The notes under the pieces are model-generated. The model did no database searches, was not told where the DNA came from, and was given only the letters and a program-made list of their open reading frames with translations. Shown one piece after another: positions 20,309-36,906 of a DNA stretch of 62,138 nt. The stretch covers positions 1 through 62,138 of the forward strand of contig JAUWMI010000027.1 of assembly GCA_030613245.1 (NCBI GenBank). Direction: 5' to 3'. This stretch comes from Candidatus Sumerlaeota bacterium. GTDB lineage: Bacteria; Sumerlaeota; Sumerlaeia; MWCT01; JAUWMI01. Numbering within the stretch: the first letter of the stretch is position 1; the number at the start of each line of letters is the position of its first letter. Both the position numbers and the translations under genes were made by a program.

Positions 20309-20692
20309 GGGGGCGTACAGGTTTCGACGGGGATCGCTGTGGAAGAGACGGCAAGCCGAGGTCGGTTCCACCACCCTCGTTAAACAGGCGGAACACTAAA
20401 TTCAAGTGCAGATGCAAATCTAGCACTTGCTGCCTAACTAGGCGGCACGTCCGCTAGCTGCTGTGCCTGCGGCGGCTAGATGGGCGCCGACAAGCGGGCT
20501 GGCTGCAAGTTTTTGTCCGAGGGCTTGTGGCGAGACACCATCGGGCTAGCCAATCATGAAAGCCTGCCTTTTGGCGTTTCTGTGCGGCGAAGCGCTTCGG
20601 AAGATCGTCTTCCGGGCAGAATAAAAAGGCTAAGCTTGTAGAAATCTCTTCTGTAGGTTCTTCGGACGTGGGTTCGATTCCCACCGCCTCCA
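20309..20692 (+). ncRNA. ssrA: Transfer-messenger RNA (tmRNA)
   Basis: A 384-base tmRNA that rescues stalled ribosomes and tags their products. The 5' end GGGGGCG pairs with CGCCTCC at 20686-20691 and adjoining base to form the acceptor stem, and GTACAGGTTTCGACGGGG is the typical 5' tRNA-like segment. The T-arm is GTGGG-TTCGATT-CCCAC (20670-20685). The resume frame encodes a tag ending ADANLALAA then TAA. The 3' CCA is not encoded here: the discriminator A at 20692 is followed by CTTTT. A second copy of the 3' end that does encode CCA lies 300 bases downstream. Confidence 0.95.
20408..20437 (+). other. tmRNA proteolysis-tag reading frame
   Basis: GCA GAT GCA AAT CTA GCA CTT GCT GCC TAA encodes ADANLALAA, ending in the LAA that ClpXP-type proteases recognise. 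The frame stays open further upstream, so the resume codon could be earlier; GCA at 20408 is the likely choice because resume codons are usually Ala or Gly. Confidence 0.75.
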
Positions 20693-20700
20693 CTTTTAAA

Positions 20701-30267: not shown

Positions 30268-30312
30268 AAAAAAAACACAGGGATACTCATTATCCTTCCC
30301 GGCATCCCTGTG
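30268..30312 (-). terminator. Intrinsic terminator of the 30.3-35.9 kb minus-strand gene run
   Basis: On the minus strand CACAGGGAT (30312-30304) pairs perfectly with ATCCCTGTG (30284-30276), followed by eight T residues (plus A-run 30268-30275). It lies 34 bases past the last stop of the run and may also stop rpsT transcription from the other side. Confidence 0.75.
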
Positions 30313-30345: not shown

Positions 30346-30747
30346 CTATTTCTTCTTCTTTTTCTTCTTCTTCTCCTGCCGCATGTGGAGTTCAGACTGC
30401 AGCTTGCCCAGGCACTTGTTCATATCCAGAAACAATGTATGCCAGTCCACCTGCAGTTTTGAGAATTGCGCTTCGGATTGCATCTTCAAATGCGACAAAC
30501 TCACCGCCTCGCAGAGCACCTCGAGAATACCCTCTGGATCCTTCAGTTTGTCGCCCATCAGTTCTGCAAATTTGAAATGATTCAGTGCAAGGAGACTGAG
30601 GATTTGCTGGAACGCAGCCTCATCATTCTCGTGAATCTTACGATGTACCAGATCGTCCGCGAACATTTTGAAAAAATCGGCCCAGAGCTTGGTATACTCA
30701 CGGCATACCTGGGTGCGATTCTCAAGCGTAAGAAATGGACTTGCCAT
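30346..30747 (-). CDS. Helical protein, paralogue of the tail-anchored protein at 34283-34861
   Basis: A 133-residue, largely helical protein with no signal peptide or membrane span, ending in a run of eight Lys (AAG/AAA codons). ILEVLCEAVSLSHLK...DWHTLF aligns, at the same spacing, with ILEILRQSISVGHLR...NWHSVF of the protein at 34283-34861, and the LW...F helix before it also matches. I recognise no known family. It is the last gene of the run and lies 78 bases after the small membrane protein gene, with a terminator directly after it. GTG codons at 30756/30753 are alternative starts. Confidence 0.7.
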   Translation of the reverse strand: MASPFLTLENRTQVCREYTKLWADFFKMFADDLVHRKIHENDEAAFQQILSLLALNHFKFAELMGDKLKDPEGILEVLCEAVSLSHLKMQSEAQFSKLQVDWHTLFLDMNKCLGKLQSELHMRQEKKKKKKKK

Positions 30748-30825
30748 ATTCACCACGTCCTGTATTCATTACGGGAGAAACTCAGGTATGGCAATGCGAG
30801 CTCCTCACCCATGCTGCCCCGTTAC

Positions 30826-30951
30826 CTACCCTTTCTTGAAGAGATTCAGGGAGAAAAAAATGTAGAGAGCAAAGGCAATAATGGCGACAATGACGATAAT
30901 TTCAATCTGGTTAACGTAGTTGATCGAGAACCCTTTGAGAAAGTCCAACAT
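30826..30951 (-). CDS. Single-span membrane microprotein, 41 residues
   Basis: A short ORF encoding MLDFLKGFSINYVNQ followed by one strong hydrophobic segment (IEIIVIVAIIAFALYIFF) and SLNLFKKG. The positive residues at the end suggest the C-terminus is cytosolic. A purine-rich GTAAGAAG precedes the ATG. It fills the otherwise empty 235-base space between the giant lipoprotein gene and the last gene. The protein at 34283-34861 is the same helical domain as the last gene with a membrane segment attached, so this microprotein probably supplies the anchor that the last gene product lacks. Confidence 0.65.
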   Translation of the reverse strand: MLDFLKGFSINYVNQIEIIVIVAIIAFALYIFFSLNLFKKG

Positions 30952-30982
30952 GCTTCTTACGATCCTGCGGAAAGGTTACACA

Positions 30983-33900
30983 CTAGAGCGACGATACAGC
31001 TCGAAATCGCTTCTCCTGTGCGAAAAACGAAGCCCGCACCTTATTCTGCTTACTCCTTACATCGTCAATGAGGGTAAATGCTTTGGTAATGATCTCCTTA
31101 ATCGCACCCTGGTCAAAGTCTTCCAGTATGAGGAGTTTCTCAAAGTACATTGCCGCGAGGCGTGCATTCTTAACCGTCTGGAGTACTTCTTTATGAAGCT
31201 CGCGTTTGGTCGGCGGTTGATTGAGTACGCCAAGCGCTTCGACTAATTCATCCATTTTGCTTCGGAACTCAATGGGTTCATCACCACCGGCAATGCTGAT
31301 ATATTGACTCTGGCCTTCCGGGCCGACCGCCAGACGCATCAGCACGTCCGGGCCCAATCGGAGTACCGTATTGAATCTCCGCATCGCCGTTGAGAGCGTA
31401 TCCAGGATTTCTGCAACCTCGCGCCGATAGATTTCCTCTTCGCGTTGCACTACAATATCATTGATCAGGGCGATGCCCTTGCGGAGATAACGATACGACG
31501 ACGAATACTTTTCCTTATCAAAATCTTCCATTGCAAAGGTTAAATATCGCTCAGCCTTCTCAACGACCTCAGGATCAAAATTCTCCATTTCTTTCGTCGC
31601 AATAATCTCGTGAAGATGGTTGCGTTTGGCTTCCACGAGGTCAGCGATCATCACGGGCGTATTTTCGATGAGATGGCTCAAGCGGGCCTCAATTTCTGAG
31701 AGCTCCCTGTCCACATAGTCATACTTCTCCACCGTAAACTGGGCTTCCACCTTGGCGATCCGTTTGAACAGCTCTTTGGCATCTTCAACGCGGAAGTAGT
31801 TGGCACCGGAATGCAAGGCAACATTCAAGGTATCTTTGACGAACTCCATGCGCGCATCATAATCCAGCTTCTTTGCATCCACAATGACCTGCTCGGCTTC
31901 ACTCCGGGCTCTGTCGGCAAAGGCGTGCGAGGATATGTAGTCGCGTCTGTCAAGCGATTCACGCGCGATTTTCCCGTGCACAATTGCCTTAGCCAGCAAT
32001 TCGTAATTATACTTCCATCCGTCGTATGTCTTGGCGTCATTAATTGCGGTTTCTGCATCTCTGACTTTCTTATAAAGAGCCTCGCTGGCTCTTTTAAATG
32101 CCTGAAGTGCAGTATTTTTTGCAGCGACAGAATCCGCACTGGCAAAGAGATTCTGTGCGGTCAGGTGGAGCTTACGCGCCTCTTCGAGTGGCGAAGCGGC
32201 GTATGTGGACGCGCCAGCCTCCTCTGCCTGGCTCATTCTCTCCTTTGCTCGCTGAATTTCATCCTGTGCCCAGAGGCGGCTCGCATCGAGCGAAGCTGCA
32301 GAGGCCACTTTTGCCGCCTGGAAAGCAGTTTCCAGAGCTGGCTTTAACTTTTCCACAGTAAGTGCCCGCTCAGCCTCGGCTAGAAGCTCCATGGCCTCGT
32401 TCAACTCAGTAGCCATATATTTGTCTGTCTGATACTCGGGCGCCTGTTGGATAATTCGCCGTGCCTCTTCAATATTCACCACAGCTTTCTTCGATAACTC
32501 CTGAACTGTCACTTCCAGCTGGGCGCGGGTTTCCGAGGCCTTGTGCGCAGCGTCCTTGTACCTATTATCGCTCAGCAGCACCTTTGTATCTTCGAGCAGA
32601 ATTTTGGTTTTATCCAGTTCCTCAGGCGCGTACTCACGAGCACCGTCTCGCTCGTAGCGGGTAATCTGCGCTGCCAGCTCGGTAATCGCGTTATGGGCCA
32701 CAACATGATAGGTTTCCGAGAGCACATACTCGGCACTCTTCTTCACGTCGCCAGCCATGAGAATCGCCTTCTTGTATTGCTTCTCTTCCTGACGAACCTT
32801 TGCAATTCCATATGACAAGCGGGCATTTCGCAAAATCTCGTTTAAATTTTCTTTCATCAGCTCCTTGCTATTCTCGAATTCCCTCTCCAGAGACGTCATG
32901 GCGTCGCGCAGGTTAATAATGAATATGGTCTCCATTTTATCAAAGACTCTCTTCGCAATATTCCAAGCATCACTTGCAGAGCGCAACGCATCCAGCGCCA
33001 GCTCGTCAAACGCCGTTTCAATCTTCTCGTTTTCGCGCAACGCCTCCTGACAAACTGTTTCCGTGTCTTCAAACAGCTCTCTATCAAATTTTGCACGAGC
33101 ATCAGCAAGCATCTCCTCAACGACCTCAACCCGACCCGGGAGATACTCCTTTGCCCCGCCCTCTACCAGAGCAGAAATCGCCATCTCCACAGCTTCAATC
33201 TTCGCATTGGCCGACTTCTGCCGCGTGATATAGATGAGATCCTTCACCTTAGGCTTCAGGAATTCCGCAGTATCCAGGACAGTGTCGAATTTTCCTTCAA
33301 AATAATCCTGAATCATGGCTTCAAATGTATCGACACACGACTTCAACATGTCGGGCGCATAGATTTCCGCCCCCTTTATGATCGCAATGGACAGATCGGA
33401 TTCGATCATCGAGATCTGTTCCTGCGATTTCTTCTCTTTAGCTTTGAGAATTCCCTCTTCAGCCTTGCTCACGGCACGATCCGACTGACTGATGGCGCCA
33501 AGATAATCGCGCCTGACACTAATCATGTTTTCAATGGTGGCTATGTAGTCTGTAACTTCGATGATGTATTCAGGGGCATACTTGTGAACTTCCTGCGTAC
33601 GCATTTCGGAAAGGGCATTCTTAGCGTCTTGCATCTTGCGCTCCGCTGAATTGCTCAGTCGTCTCAAGAGGAGATCAACCTCACTGATCACCTCCTCGGA
33701 CAGCTCAATAACTTTATCCCACTTGTCCTTGGCCAAGCGCTCTTTGGCCTTTGCGTAAAGTTCCTGGATCTTCTCATAGCGTTCAGGGTCTTCCTTACTC
33801 CCCTCATTCAGGTCAGCAACGTCAATCGCTGCCTTGGCATCGTTGATCTTCACATTCGCACGCTGGGTCTTTGATTGAGTTAGTGTCCGCTCCGCCAGGC

Positions 33901-34165
33901 TCACCGCGTCCTTTGCCCGCTCCAGAGCCACACTATAATTTCGCGCATTGAGCTGCTGATTAGCAGCGTTAACGTTTGTCCGCGACTGCTCTAAAAGAGT
34001 TGCCGCATACTTTTCTGCCTCGTGTTTCTGCGCCTCTTCGAGCCGATTCTTTGCCTTCTTGAGCAGCAGATTGGTCCGTTGTTTTGCGCACCCTGCAATC
34101 AACGACAACGAACAGACTAATGCCGCCATGTAGAGAATTACTCTGATTCGCATCAGCCGCCCCAT
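30983..34165 (-). CDS. Giant lipoprotein of repeated DUF4398-like helical units
   Basis: A 1060-residue protein with lipoprotein signal and lipobox I-A-G-C26. The rest is almost wholly helical, with about ten units of ~85-100 residues. Each has a pattern A-x-x-YAPEyL-x-x-A near its start and a paired helix ending KY-x-x-A/V...A; examples are KYAPEYIIEV, IYAPDMLKS, EYLPGRVEVVEEM, EYAPEELDKTK, KYMATELNEAMEL, TYAASPLEEARKL and NFDPEVVEKAERY. This matches DUF4398-type repeats found in outer-membrane lipoproteins. Length predicts a very long rod reaching across or along the periplasm. The ATG at 34165 is chosen because GGAGG lies eight bases ahead; the longer frame to 34276 is not supported. Function is unknown. 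Confidence 0.85.
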   Translation of the reverse strand: MGRLMRIRVILYMAALVCSLSLIAGCAKQRTNLLLKKAKNRLEEAQKHEAEKYAATLLEQSRTNVNAANQQLNARNYSVALERAKDAVSLAERTLTQSKTQRANVKINDAKAAIDVADLNEGSKEDPERYEKIQELYAKAKERLAKDKWDKVIELSEEVISEVDLLLRRLSNSAERKMQDAKNALSEMRTQEVHKYAPEYIIEVTDYIATIENMISVRRDYLGAISQSDRAVSKAEEGILKAKEKKSQEQISMIESDLSIAIIKGAEIYAPDMLKSCVDTFEAMIQDYFEGKFDTVLDTAEFLKPKVKDLIYITRQKSANAKIEAVEMAISALVEGGAKEYLPGRVEVVEEMLADARAKFDRELFEDTETVCQEALRENEKIETAFDELALDALRSASDAWNIAKRVFDKMETIFIINLRDAMTSLEREFENSKELMKENLNEILRNARLSYGIAKVRQEEKQYKKAILMAGDVKKSAEYVLSETYHVVAHNAITELAAQITRYERDGAREYAPEELDKTKILLEDTKVLLSDNRYKDAAHKASETRAQLEVTVQELSKKAVVNIEEARRIIQQAPEYQTDKYMATELNEAMELLAEAERALTVEKLKPALETAFQAAKVASAASLDASRLWAQDEIQRAKERMSQAEEAGASTYAASPLEEARKLHLTAQNLFASADSVAAKNTALQAFKRASEALYKKVRDAETAINDAKTYDGWKYNYELLAKAIVHGKIARESLDRRDYISSHAFADRARSEAEQVIVDAKKLDYDARMEFVKDTLNVALHSGANYFRVEDAKELFKRIAKVEAQFTVEKYDYVDRELSEIEARLSHLIENTPVMIADLVEAKRNHLHEIIATKEMENFDPEVVEKAERYLTFAMEDFDKEKYSSSYRYLRKGIALINDIVVQREEEIYRREVAEILDTLSTAMRRFNTVLRLGPDVLMRLAVGPEGQSQYISIAGGDEPIEFRSKMDELVEALGVLNQPPTKRELHKEVLQTVKNARLAAMYFEKLLILEDFDQGAIKEIITKAFTLIDDVRSKQNKVRASFFAQEKRFRAVSSL

Positions 34166-34282
34166 GGACATGTCCTCCGCCTTGGTTTCCTGTTCATCCC
34201 CTCGCCTAACGCCACATAAAGCATCCCGTCTTGGGCTTCCCTTTTCCGCGCCCCCGCCAGCGGGCTCAGGATTCAATAAAGC

Positions 34283-34861
34283 CTATAGCTGTGACAACAC
34301 AAACAAGATACCTGCCGCCACCACTATAACAGCAATAATAATGAGTACGATCCATAGCTTCTTGGAGCTAAGAAATTCAAAGGATTCTTGACCCCGTTTC
34401 CCTTTTTTGCCCAGCCCACGGCCTCCAGTGGCAGCCATGGCCTTGATCTTTGCTACCGAGACTACGCCGCCCCTTTTTTCTCGTAGCAGTGGTACAAATC
34501 CTTCGGCAAGAAAACGATACGCACCAACGGTGCGACTTAAGTAAACGAAGACACTATGCCAGTTTGTATAGAGCGTCCGTTTGTCGCCTATAGGCAACGC
34601 GCGCAAGTGCCCCACGGAAATTGATTGGCGTAGAATCTCGAGAATCTTATCGCCGCCGTAATAGAAGAGTTCATTTGAGCGCTGTGCGAGTGCCCGATGG
34701 CTCTTGGCAAGCGTGCTCTTGAGCTCGAGAAAATCCTGCTCTTCCTGGCGCGAGATTGGCTCACTCGTGAAGGAACGCTGAAAATACGTCCTAAACGAAA
34801 CCCACAGCTGAAGCAGATTCTTGAACCCCTCCAGATTTCCAGAAATGACTTGAGTTTTCAT
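34283..34861 (-). CDS. Tail-anchored helical protein
   Basis: A 192-residue protein: helical domain (residues ~1-130), a Gly/Lys linker (GGRGLGKKGKRGQES), and a single C-terminal membrane span (LWIVLIIIAVIVVAAGILFVL) with only SQL after it. The helical domain is paralogous to the last gene of the run (30346-30747). With no signal peptide, the domain should face the cytosol with the tail in the inner membrane. It lies 24 bases after the secreted protein gene and 117 bases before the giant lipoprotein start, so translation is likely from one mRNA. Confidence 0.75.
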   Translation of the reverse strand: MKTQVISGNLEGFKNLLQLWVSFRTYFQRSFTSEPISRQEEQDFLELKSTLAKSHRALAQRSNELFYYGGDKILEILRQSISVGHLRALPIGDKRTLYTNWHSVFVYLSRTVGAYRFLAEGFVPLLREKRGGVVSVAKIKAMAATGGRGLGKKGKRGQESFEFLSSKKLWIVLIIIAVIVVAAGILFVLSQL

Positions 34862-34885
34862 CGTGATGTTCTATACAGCCCCTGT

Positions 34886-35860
34886 TTACCGAAAATAGCT
34901 ACTAGTCGCGCCGCCGCCTCCGCCGCCCGCAGCAGCACCCGTAACCCCTCCTCCTCGAGCGCCGCTAAAGCGGTCAGTCGCGGCCTGCTGCTGTTGTCTC
35001 TCTTCCTCCAAACGCAGCTGTTCTGCCAGAATGGGATTAAATCCCGGCGGCATCGGAGCACCTGGCGTTTCAGGTGGTATCGGCACGTAAAGCGGATAGA
35101 ATCCACTCGTTGGATCATCAGGATTCTTTCGAAACATGCGCAGGAACCGCTCATTCCATTCTTTGAGCTTAGCGTCACGTTCTTGTTCCTCGTAGCGGCT
35201 CTTGGTGATTTGGGAAATGGGCTCTGTGGTAGTGGCATAAAGACGGAAGAATTGCAGAGAATCCGCTTCTTCGCAGTAGCGCAACAGCGAAAGCAATCGT
35301 TCCTTAAGAGCGTTACATTCCGACCCTAAGAACTCGTCACTGCGCTCAGTGATATTCGTATATTCTCCATCGCCAGCTTCTATGTCGCCGTGGGTGCCAT
35401 CATCATAGAACTGCGTTTTGGCAACTATCTCTGGCACTTGCGCCCTCCTCACATCTTCAAGTAATGTGCCACACACTGCACACCTTACACGCTGGCCACC
35501 AATAACCATTACCATTACTGGTGTTGGCGTTGGTGTTGGCCCTGTGCCAGGCGCCGGCGCAGCGACCCACTGGGTTGGGGCTTCTGATGGTGCTGCACCT
35601 GCACCAGGTGGTCCAGCGCCGCCAGCCCATCCATCTACAAAATTCGATGGTCCAGGCCTGGCAGCCGGTACCGGTGCAGCAACCGCCCGGGCTCCTCCTA
35701 TATATGTGCTAGCGTCCAGACCGCCAGTTGGGCTTGCATCGAGAAGAGGCCGTTCCGCCCCGCCTGTATCAAAAGGATTTAGCTGAGCCAGTGTAACTGA
35801 TGCAAAAGCCCAAGCAAGGATCGCAAACAGTCCTACAAAAAGCAGTGAAAATCGTCTCAT
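34886..35860 (-). CDS. Secreted Pro/Ala/Gly-rich protein, first gene of the envelope run
   Basis: A 324-residue protein starting MRRFSLLFVGLFAILAWAF with a signal peptide (cleavage near TLAQ). Residues ~40-110 are low-complexity Ala/Pro/Gly with a GTGPTPTPTP linker. A folded part follows: CAVCGTLLEDV, then DDGTHGDIEAGDGEYTN, a motif class seen in exported beta-domains, and an Arg/Glu-rich helix. The C-terminus is Gly-rich (GGGGGGATSSYFR). AAAGGGAGGG lies seven bases before the ATG at 35860; the longer frame to 35959 lacks support. It is the promoter-proximal gene of a five-gene run. I recognise no family. Confidence 0.7.
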   Translation of the reverse strand: MRRFSLLFVGLFAILAWAFASVTLAQLNPFDTGGAERPLLDASPTGGLDASTYIGGARAVAAPVPAARPGPSNFVDGWAGGAGPPGAGAAPSEAPTQWVAAPAPGTGPTPTPTPVMVMVIGGQRVRCAVCGTLLEDVRRAQVPEIVAKTQFYDDGTHGDIEAGDGEYTNITERSDEFLGSECNALKERLLSLLRYCEEADSLQFFRLYATTTEPISQITKSRYEEQERDAKLKEWNERFLRMFRKNPDDPTSGFYPLYVPIPPETPGAPMPPGFNPILAEQLRLEEERQQQQAATDRFSGARGGGVTGAAAGGGGGGATSSYFR

Positions 35861-35941: not shown

Positions 35942-35969
35942 ACTAATATATCGGCACACAATATGTCAA
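35942..35969 (-). promoter_or_regulatory. Possible promoter of the five-gene envelope run
   Basis: On the minus strand a perfect TTGACA (35969-35964) is followed by an A+T-rich region with candidate -10 boxes TATTAG or TAGTAA at 15- and 18-base spacing. It lies about 85 bases upstream of the ATG at 35860. The -10 assignment is uncertain. Confidence 0.4.
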
Positions 35970-36141: not shown

Positions 36142-36906
36142 CTACCTCACCACAATGCGATGCTTATTCGCTTCGTAACGAACCTGGCCAATTCCTTTAA
36201 CCTTCATGATATCCTGTGAGGAACGAAATGGCCCGTGTTCCTGGCGATACTGAATTATTCGCCCCGCCAGTGCATCGCCAATTCCATCGAGGCGCTTCAA
36301 CTCTTCAGACGAGGCTGTGTTGATATTTACTGTCGCAAGAGAAGCGTGCGGGGAAAATACACCCTGGAGCTCTTTTTGCACCCCTGCCACTGCCGGCACT
36401 GTCACAAGCAAGGGAGTAAACGGCGCTGGCAATTGGGCTGTACTGGGAGCCGGTTGACCTTCCTGTGGCTCATCCACGCATACGTATCCCTTCAACCCGG
36501 AATATGTTTTCTCTCCAATACCCGAAATATTCAATAACTCCTCTACGGCTCTGAAACCCTTGTTTGCCTCTCGATAGTCAATAATGAGTTGTGCTTTCTT
36601 GGGACCAATGCCAGGTAGCTGATCAAGCTGCTCAAGCGTTGCCCGATTAATATCAAGACGGCCGTTGACGTAGCTACGCTGTGTCGCCGGAAGAAGCATT
36701 GGCACCTGGCTTTGCTCTGCCTGATTTGCAGTGCCACCTGCTGACGTCGCCTTGCTAACTTTCCCAGATCCGGGTGCCCCTGACTCCACCCATACACCAT
36801 GCCGGCCCGAGCGGCGGCCAACATAATGAATACCCATACCGACGGTAATGACTATGATCAACAGGAGCAGAACCTTCTGCTCCTGACGTGTCATTCCAGA
36901 AAGCAT
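36142..36906 (-). CDS. ComEA-like protein with two helix-hairpin-helix domains
   Basis: A 254-residue protein with one N-terminal membrane span (VLLLLIIVITVGMGIHYV) and two HhH DNA-binding units: DINRATLEQLDQLPGIGPKKA near residue 85 and VNINTASSEELKRLDGIG near residue 190, each continuing into a second hairpin. ComEA proteins bind DNA in the periplasm during competence. Two HhH modules rather than one is unusual; the linker is Pro/Ala-rich. A SD GAGGGGGAG precedes the ATG. It follows leuS by 67 bases on the same strand. Confidence 0.85.
   Translation of the reverse strand: MLSGMTRQEQKVLLLLIIVITVGMGIHYVGRRSGRHGVWVESGAPGSGKVSKATSAGGTANQAEQSQVPMLLPATQRSYVNGRLDINRATLEQLDQLPGIGPKKAQLIIDYREANKGFRAVEELLNISGIGEKTYSGLKGYVCVDEPQEGQPAPSTAQLPAPFTPLLVTVPAVAGVQKELQGVFSPHASLATVNINTASSEELKRLDGIGDALAGRIIQYRQEHGPFRSSQDIMKVKGIGQVRYEANKHRIVVR

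Follow-up and report, generated by a model that had tools for sequence, protein, structure and literature searches.

We asked whether five neighbouring minus-strand ORFs, at positions 30346-35860 of a Candidatus Sumerlaeota contig, form a cell-envelope system that has not been described, and what such a system would do. The window analysed was the entire contig (C88; 62,138 nucleotides) of a 4.29-Mb draft genome. The ORFs were named g1, g2, g3, g4, and g5 in coding order, and the gaps between them were 24, 117, 31, and 69-78 bases (Table 1). An earlier note on this DNA had listed the same five genes with gaps of 24, 117, 31, and 78, encoding a secreted, a tail-anchored, a lipoprotein, a 41-residue membrane, and a second helical product; the ORF positions and spacing agreed with it, and all five kinds of product were found in the ORFs. 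Its transcription signals held up less well. At the proposed promoter (35942-35969) a TTGACA was present, with no TATAAT-like hexamer at 16-18 nt. Promoter-like sites in the region numbered 9, near the 5.8 ± 2.4 expected from shuffled sequence, and the promoter was rejected as a -35-like hexamer without a properly spaced partner. The stem that the note had described as a perfect-stem terminator folds well and is plausible as an intrinsic terminator after g5, but it is not perfect, as 11 consecutive pairs are followed by a bulge. Just upstream of g1, at 36142-36906, lies an ORF for a ComEA-like protein with two helix-hairpin-helix regions.

Table 1. Coordinates, strands, and predicted properties of the cassette features in the window.
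Feature	Position	Strand	Description
g1	34886..35860	-	Secreted, 324 aa; signal peptide, Pro/Gly-rich linker, conserved core with choice-of-anchor X motif (YDDGTHGDIEAGDGEYT)
g2	34283..34861	-	192 aa; cytosolic helical-bundle domain, Gly/Lys-rich linker, C-terminal TM helix (tail-anchored)
g3	30983..about 34168 (start 34165 or 34168)	-	Lipoprotein of about 1060 aa, all helical, about 12 repeats of 72 residues; DUF4398 match
g4	30826..30951	-	41 aa, single-span membrane protein
g5	30346..30756 or 30747	-	Cytosolic helical protein, 136 or 133 aa; g2 domain without TM
Probable intrinsic terminator, 3' of g5	30268..30312	-	MFE -18.5 kcal/mol, z -2.85, followed by eight U

We investigated if the five genes occur together in other genomes, as the earlier note had proposed; it had held that finding them apart in relatives would refute a system. 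Loci were fetched around matches and then searched with profiles built from the cassette genes. A g3 family search of genome contigs, run with a 7-row alignment, returned 12 loci, 8 of them from Candidatus Sumerlaeota or candidate division BRC1. Of 40 Sumerlaeota genomes, 39 carried the g2 domain and 38 carried g3; of the two without a g3 match, G001 has its locus cut by a contig end. In a second phylum the domain was carried by 13 of 14 genomes. The same-strand order g1-domain-g3-g4-domain was intact in 46 loci from three phyla (34 Sumerlaeota, 11 from the second phylum, and 1 from a third, G167), two of which had split genes (g3 in L055; g1 and g3 in L111). This recurrence is greater than chance. 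In relatives the genes lay together, in this order and on one strand, in nearly every contig reaching far enough. G304, from the same phylum as G167, carried domain-g3-g4-domain with no g1 recognised and was the sole incomplete locus not explained by a contig end; the remaining incomplete loci stopped at contig ends. No cassette matches were obtained in G015 (82% complete) and G391, for which true loss and an assembly gap are both possible.

The five-gene unit is bounded, and its neighbours differ between lineages. The cassette was flanked by leuS-comEA in the window, L066, and L067, by comEA in L037, by proC in family f158, and by an lptE-like gene with holA or manC in f266 (here and below, the names hslV, HU/IHF, tatA/C, holA, proC, and lptE-like were assigned by eye from translations, not by family search). 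A fixed genomic neighbour (comEA, leuS, proC, or holA) was rejected as a general link because each held only in some lineages. When flanking ORFs were compared all-against-all by BLAST, the families widely common across phyla were g1, the g2/g5 domain, and g3. Five loci had a pilin family in common, and apart from a few pilins no further cross-phylum gene family emerged; most other wide groups had lengths and distributions suggesting that they are reading-frame shadows of cassette genes.

Trees of the cassette proteins pointed to an old origin. In the g3 tree (52 rows) each phylum fell on one side of a branch, with support of 97, 97, and 100. In the tree of the g2/g5 domain, g2, g5, and a lone paralogue, X, formed largely distinct groups, and Sumerlaeota X joined X of the second phylum with support of 98/99; the deep branches were weakly resolved, long rows were unsure, and neither g2 nor g5 was one clade. 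Since g2, g5, and X grouped apart and X of the two phyla joined, their duplications appear to predate the split of these phyla. The separation of the three phyla by g3, with the largely distinct domain groups, argued that the cassette is ancient and has been retained. A g3 tree that matches taxonomy, as under vertical inheritance, would also be obtained from an old operon of functionally unrelated genes that stayed together by inheritance only. We consider this very improbable, as the neighbours changed repeatedly whereas the five genes kept their order despite divergence down to about 25% identity. Gene order so strict across such divergence usually marks a core complex.

The largest product, g3, carries the lipobox LIAGC, and its Cys27 was invariant across 31 relatives. 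Its structure model was all helical (pLDDT 88.8, pTM 0.36), with a regular pattern of long and short helices, and profiles of single 72-residue units matched other units with E down to 1e-11. The protein matched DUF4398 (PF14346) at 32.8 bits, above the Pfam gathering score of 27.9 (E 9.7e-8; 19 of 31 family members matched at E <= 0.01), and gave a weak match to LipL71 (NF033163; 22.8 bits, far under the curated cut-off of 600). It resembles the helical-repeat lipoproteins of the DUF4398 and LipL71 type in these scores, but differs from them by its length of about 1060 residues, its repeats numbering about 12, and its fixed operon. The top Foldseek rows for g3 were vinculin and alpha-catenin rods, with E 0.004 or worse and TM near 0.1. 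Part of g3 was also of a helical-bundle type similar to the N-domain of Borrelia BB0323 (PDB 6rjx/6rjw; prob 0.87-0.94, TM on target 0.51-0.55), yet E was 2.9-5.2, not significant, and no sequence relation was found. Judged on these models, both likenesses are an analogy of fold type only, below significance. Away from the cassette, some genomes encode a second, shorter protein (229-368 aa) matching g3 in its N-terminal part (G002:C1:25017-25442, G004:C205, G003:C287, and G006:C70).

The claim that two products share a domain was borne out by profile-profile comparison of g2 and g5 (E 7.5e-19, probability 99%, aligned over 113 columns). A Trp, a Glu-Phe motif, and a Trp-His were nearly invariant in both. 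The g2 model (pLDDT 86.9) consisted of a helical bundle at residues 3-119 and a TM helix at 166-191, and had no significant fold match in the PDB. An identity as ABC-3C CTD8 was considered for g2 (18.7 bits against a cut-off of 27.6) and dropped because only 1 of 30 relatives showed CTD8. In the window, g5 ends in a C-terminal lysine run, KKKKKKKK (30349-30390).

The same domain occurs outside the cassette, in several settings. A third paralogue (domain, TM, and periplasmic part) immediately followed pilC in 18 of 24 Sumerlaeota loci, usually or often ahead of dprA, and had the same pilC setting in G304, outside Sumerlaeota. One example, L069:5690-6715 (G000:C25), has 341 aa and sits between pilB-pilC and dprA-topA; the same place is taken in most Sumerlaeota. 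In the phylum of G244, with small genomes, a lone domain protein was often directly behind pilT (L087, L089, L142, and L143). Of 60 genomes sampled from the large phylum of G315 (L150-L179), 56 carried a lone relative with a TM helix, and many of these proteins were beside HU/IHF, tatC, and tatA, not pilus genes. These varied settings argue for a predicted membrane-associated cytosolic module that is used in several contexts and is repeatedly, though not solely, linked to pilus genes.

That link raised the possibility that the cassette assists a type IV pilus, a competence system, or a type II-like machine, in which the domain would be an adaptor to the PilC/PilB/PilT side, the other parts an extra envelope-spanning collar or guide, and g1 the exported part. 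Besides the positions behind pilC and pilT, this would fit with comEA lying ahead of the cassette in four loci including the window, and with the twitching pili reported for every Sumerlaeota MAG examined (PMC8092238). The PilMNOPQ alignment complex likewise has cytosolic, inner-membrane, and outer-membrane parts. Yet no cassette product matched PilM, PilN, PilO, PilP, or PilQ in Pfam and NCBIfam, and a canonical pilM-N-O-P-Q set was located elsewhere in these genomes (PilM by family search; PilN, PilO, PilP, and PilQ read from translations), so that the cassette has no gap in this set to fill; a role in place of a missing PilP was rejected for this reason. Moreover, the HU/IHF-tat setting in the phylum of G315 does not involve pilus genes, pilin-like genes were rare near cassettes (5 in 0.8 Mb), and T2SSF genes were so many in every genome tested that their co-occurrence says little. 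We hold a pilus accessory to be unlikely, though still a serious contender.

The first gene, g1, matched choice-of-anchor X (NF041940) at 28.6 bits, above the curated cut-off of 25. The motif was matched by 14 of 30 g1 relatives and spans only about 21 residues. A conserved SSxYF-type C-terminal tail was seen in 17 of 46 g1 proteins, all from a subset of Sumerlaeota, and was not kept as a general property of g1. Neither g1, g2, nor g3 had a significant relative in the PDB by sequence and fold searches. The small g4 has one hydrophobic span with a conserved Glu at the TM start and a Lys-rich C-terminus, and was retained in three phyla. We weighed if the cassette could be a device dedicated to exporting g1 or displaying it on the surface, with g2, g4, and g5 as the inner-membrane and cytosolic part, g3 as the periplasmic and outer-membrane part, and g1 as cargo. 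The constant first place of g1, its signal peptide and choice-of-anchor X motif, and the tail in some g1 proteins speak for such a device. No ATPase, channel, or barrel was found among the products by Pfam and NCBIfam, however, and the tail does not extend beyond part of Sumerlaeota, leaving this reading improbable.

The earlier note had seen no recognisable enzyme and known no described operon of this composition. Family searches agreed on the first point; for the second, neither the databases (Pfam, NCBIfam, PADLOC, and PHROGs), nor comparison with PDB sequences and folds, nor the literature searched revealed a known system built from such parts. The profile search that the note had suggested gave only DUF4398 (g3) and choice-of-anchor X (g1) above cut-off. 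Four of the five products are without a known family beyond the short g1 motif, and g3 is known only as a DUF4398 repeat protein. Pfam and NCBIfam detected neither an OmpA-like Pal domain nor TolA/B/Q/R homology among the products, and Pal-like proteins were encoded elsewhere in 18 of 18 cassette genomes tested; therefore the cassette is no substitute for Tol-Pal tethering, and the Pal substitute was rejected. Similarly, a type VI membrane complex received no support, with no DotU/TssL, TssM, or TssJ match in Pfam and NCBIfam. By analogy with the cassette, TssJ-TssL-TssM also combines a tail-anchored helical cytosolic protein with a lipoprotein. Anti-phage defence or phage origin was rejected as there was no PADLOC or PHROGs match. 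The cassette is like the FESNov synapomorphic families in being unknown, phylum-marking, and conserved in context. Such families, marking whole uncultivated phyla, are common (PMC10849945), which tempers surprise at the cassette; Sumerlaeota is not named in the main text of that paper.

Together, these results demonstrated that the unit and its order are conserved in three phyla, that g2 and g5 are paralogues, and that g3 is a repeat lipoprotein. The earlier note's proposal of an undescribed envelope system was thereby supported, by the order in three phyla, the differing neighbours, and topology predictions that fit the envelope, and the five genes very probably form a real, undescribed cell-envelope system. 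That the five products physically form one apparatus remains an inference, as no complex was modelled and no expression data were available. Our leading explanation, inferred from topology and order and held at somewhat less than an even chance, is a trans-envelope assembly that serves as a structural tether or scaffold. In such an assembly, g3 would be lipid-anchored in the outer membrane (the residue after its Cys is Ala rather than Asp), and about 12 helical repeats in a chain would reach as a rod into or across the periplasm. The tail-anchored g2 and the single helix of g4 (N-out, C-in) would make up an inner-membrane base, the helical domains of g2 and g5 a cytosolic paralogue pair, and g1 would be exported to act in the periplasm or at the surface. 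Less surely, the assembly would serve to link the outer membrane with the inner membrane and cytosol. Against the assembly, the structural analogies are below significance and no interaction has been shown. Against a tether, lone relatives of the domain are found next to pilC, pilT, or tat genes, which may instead indicate a machine. The choice among tether, scaffold, and accessory of a pilus-type machine is undecided.

The standout feature is the strict five-gene order in three phyla, by which the cassette marks a likely core complex in a phylum that has no cultured member and whose envelope biology is unknown. It is quite possible, though we would not rely on it, that the cassette represents a novel class of machine spanning the envelope, which is ancestral to at least three phyla, has been kept by almost all of their members, and is built on a helical cytosolic adaptor domain that pili and further membrane machines, in these phyla and neighbouring ones, use as well. 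The domain common to pilC- and pilT-linked proteins provides a concrete handle on the cassette, and the cassette makes testable the question of what else spans the envelope in these phyla. Elsewhere in the window, a tmRNA gene with the tag ADANLALAA was located at 20309-20695 on the plus strand.
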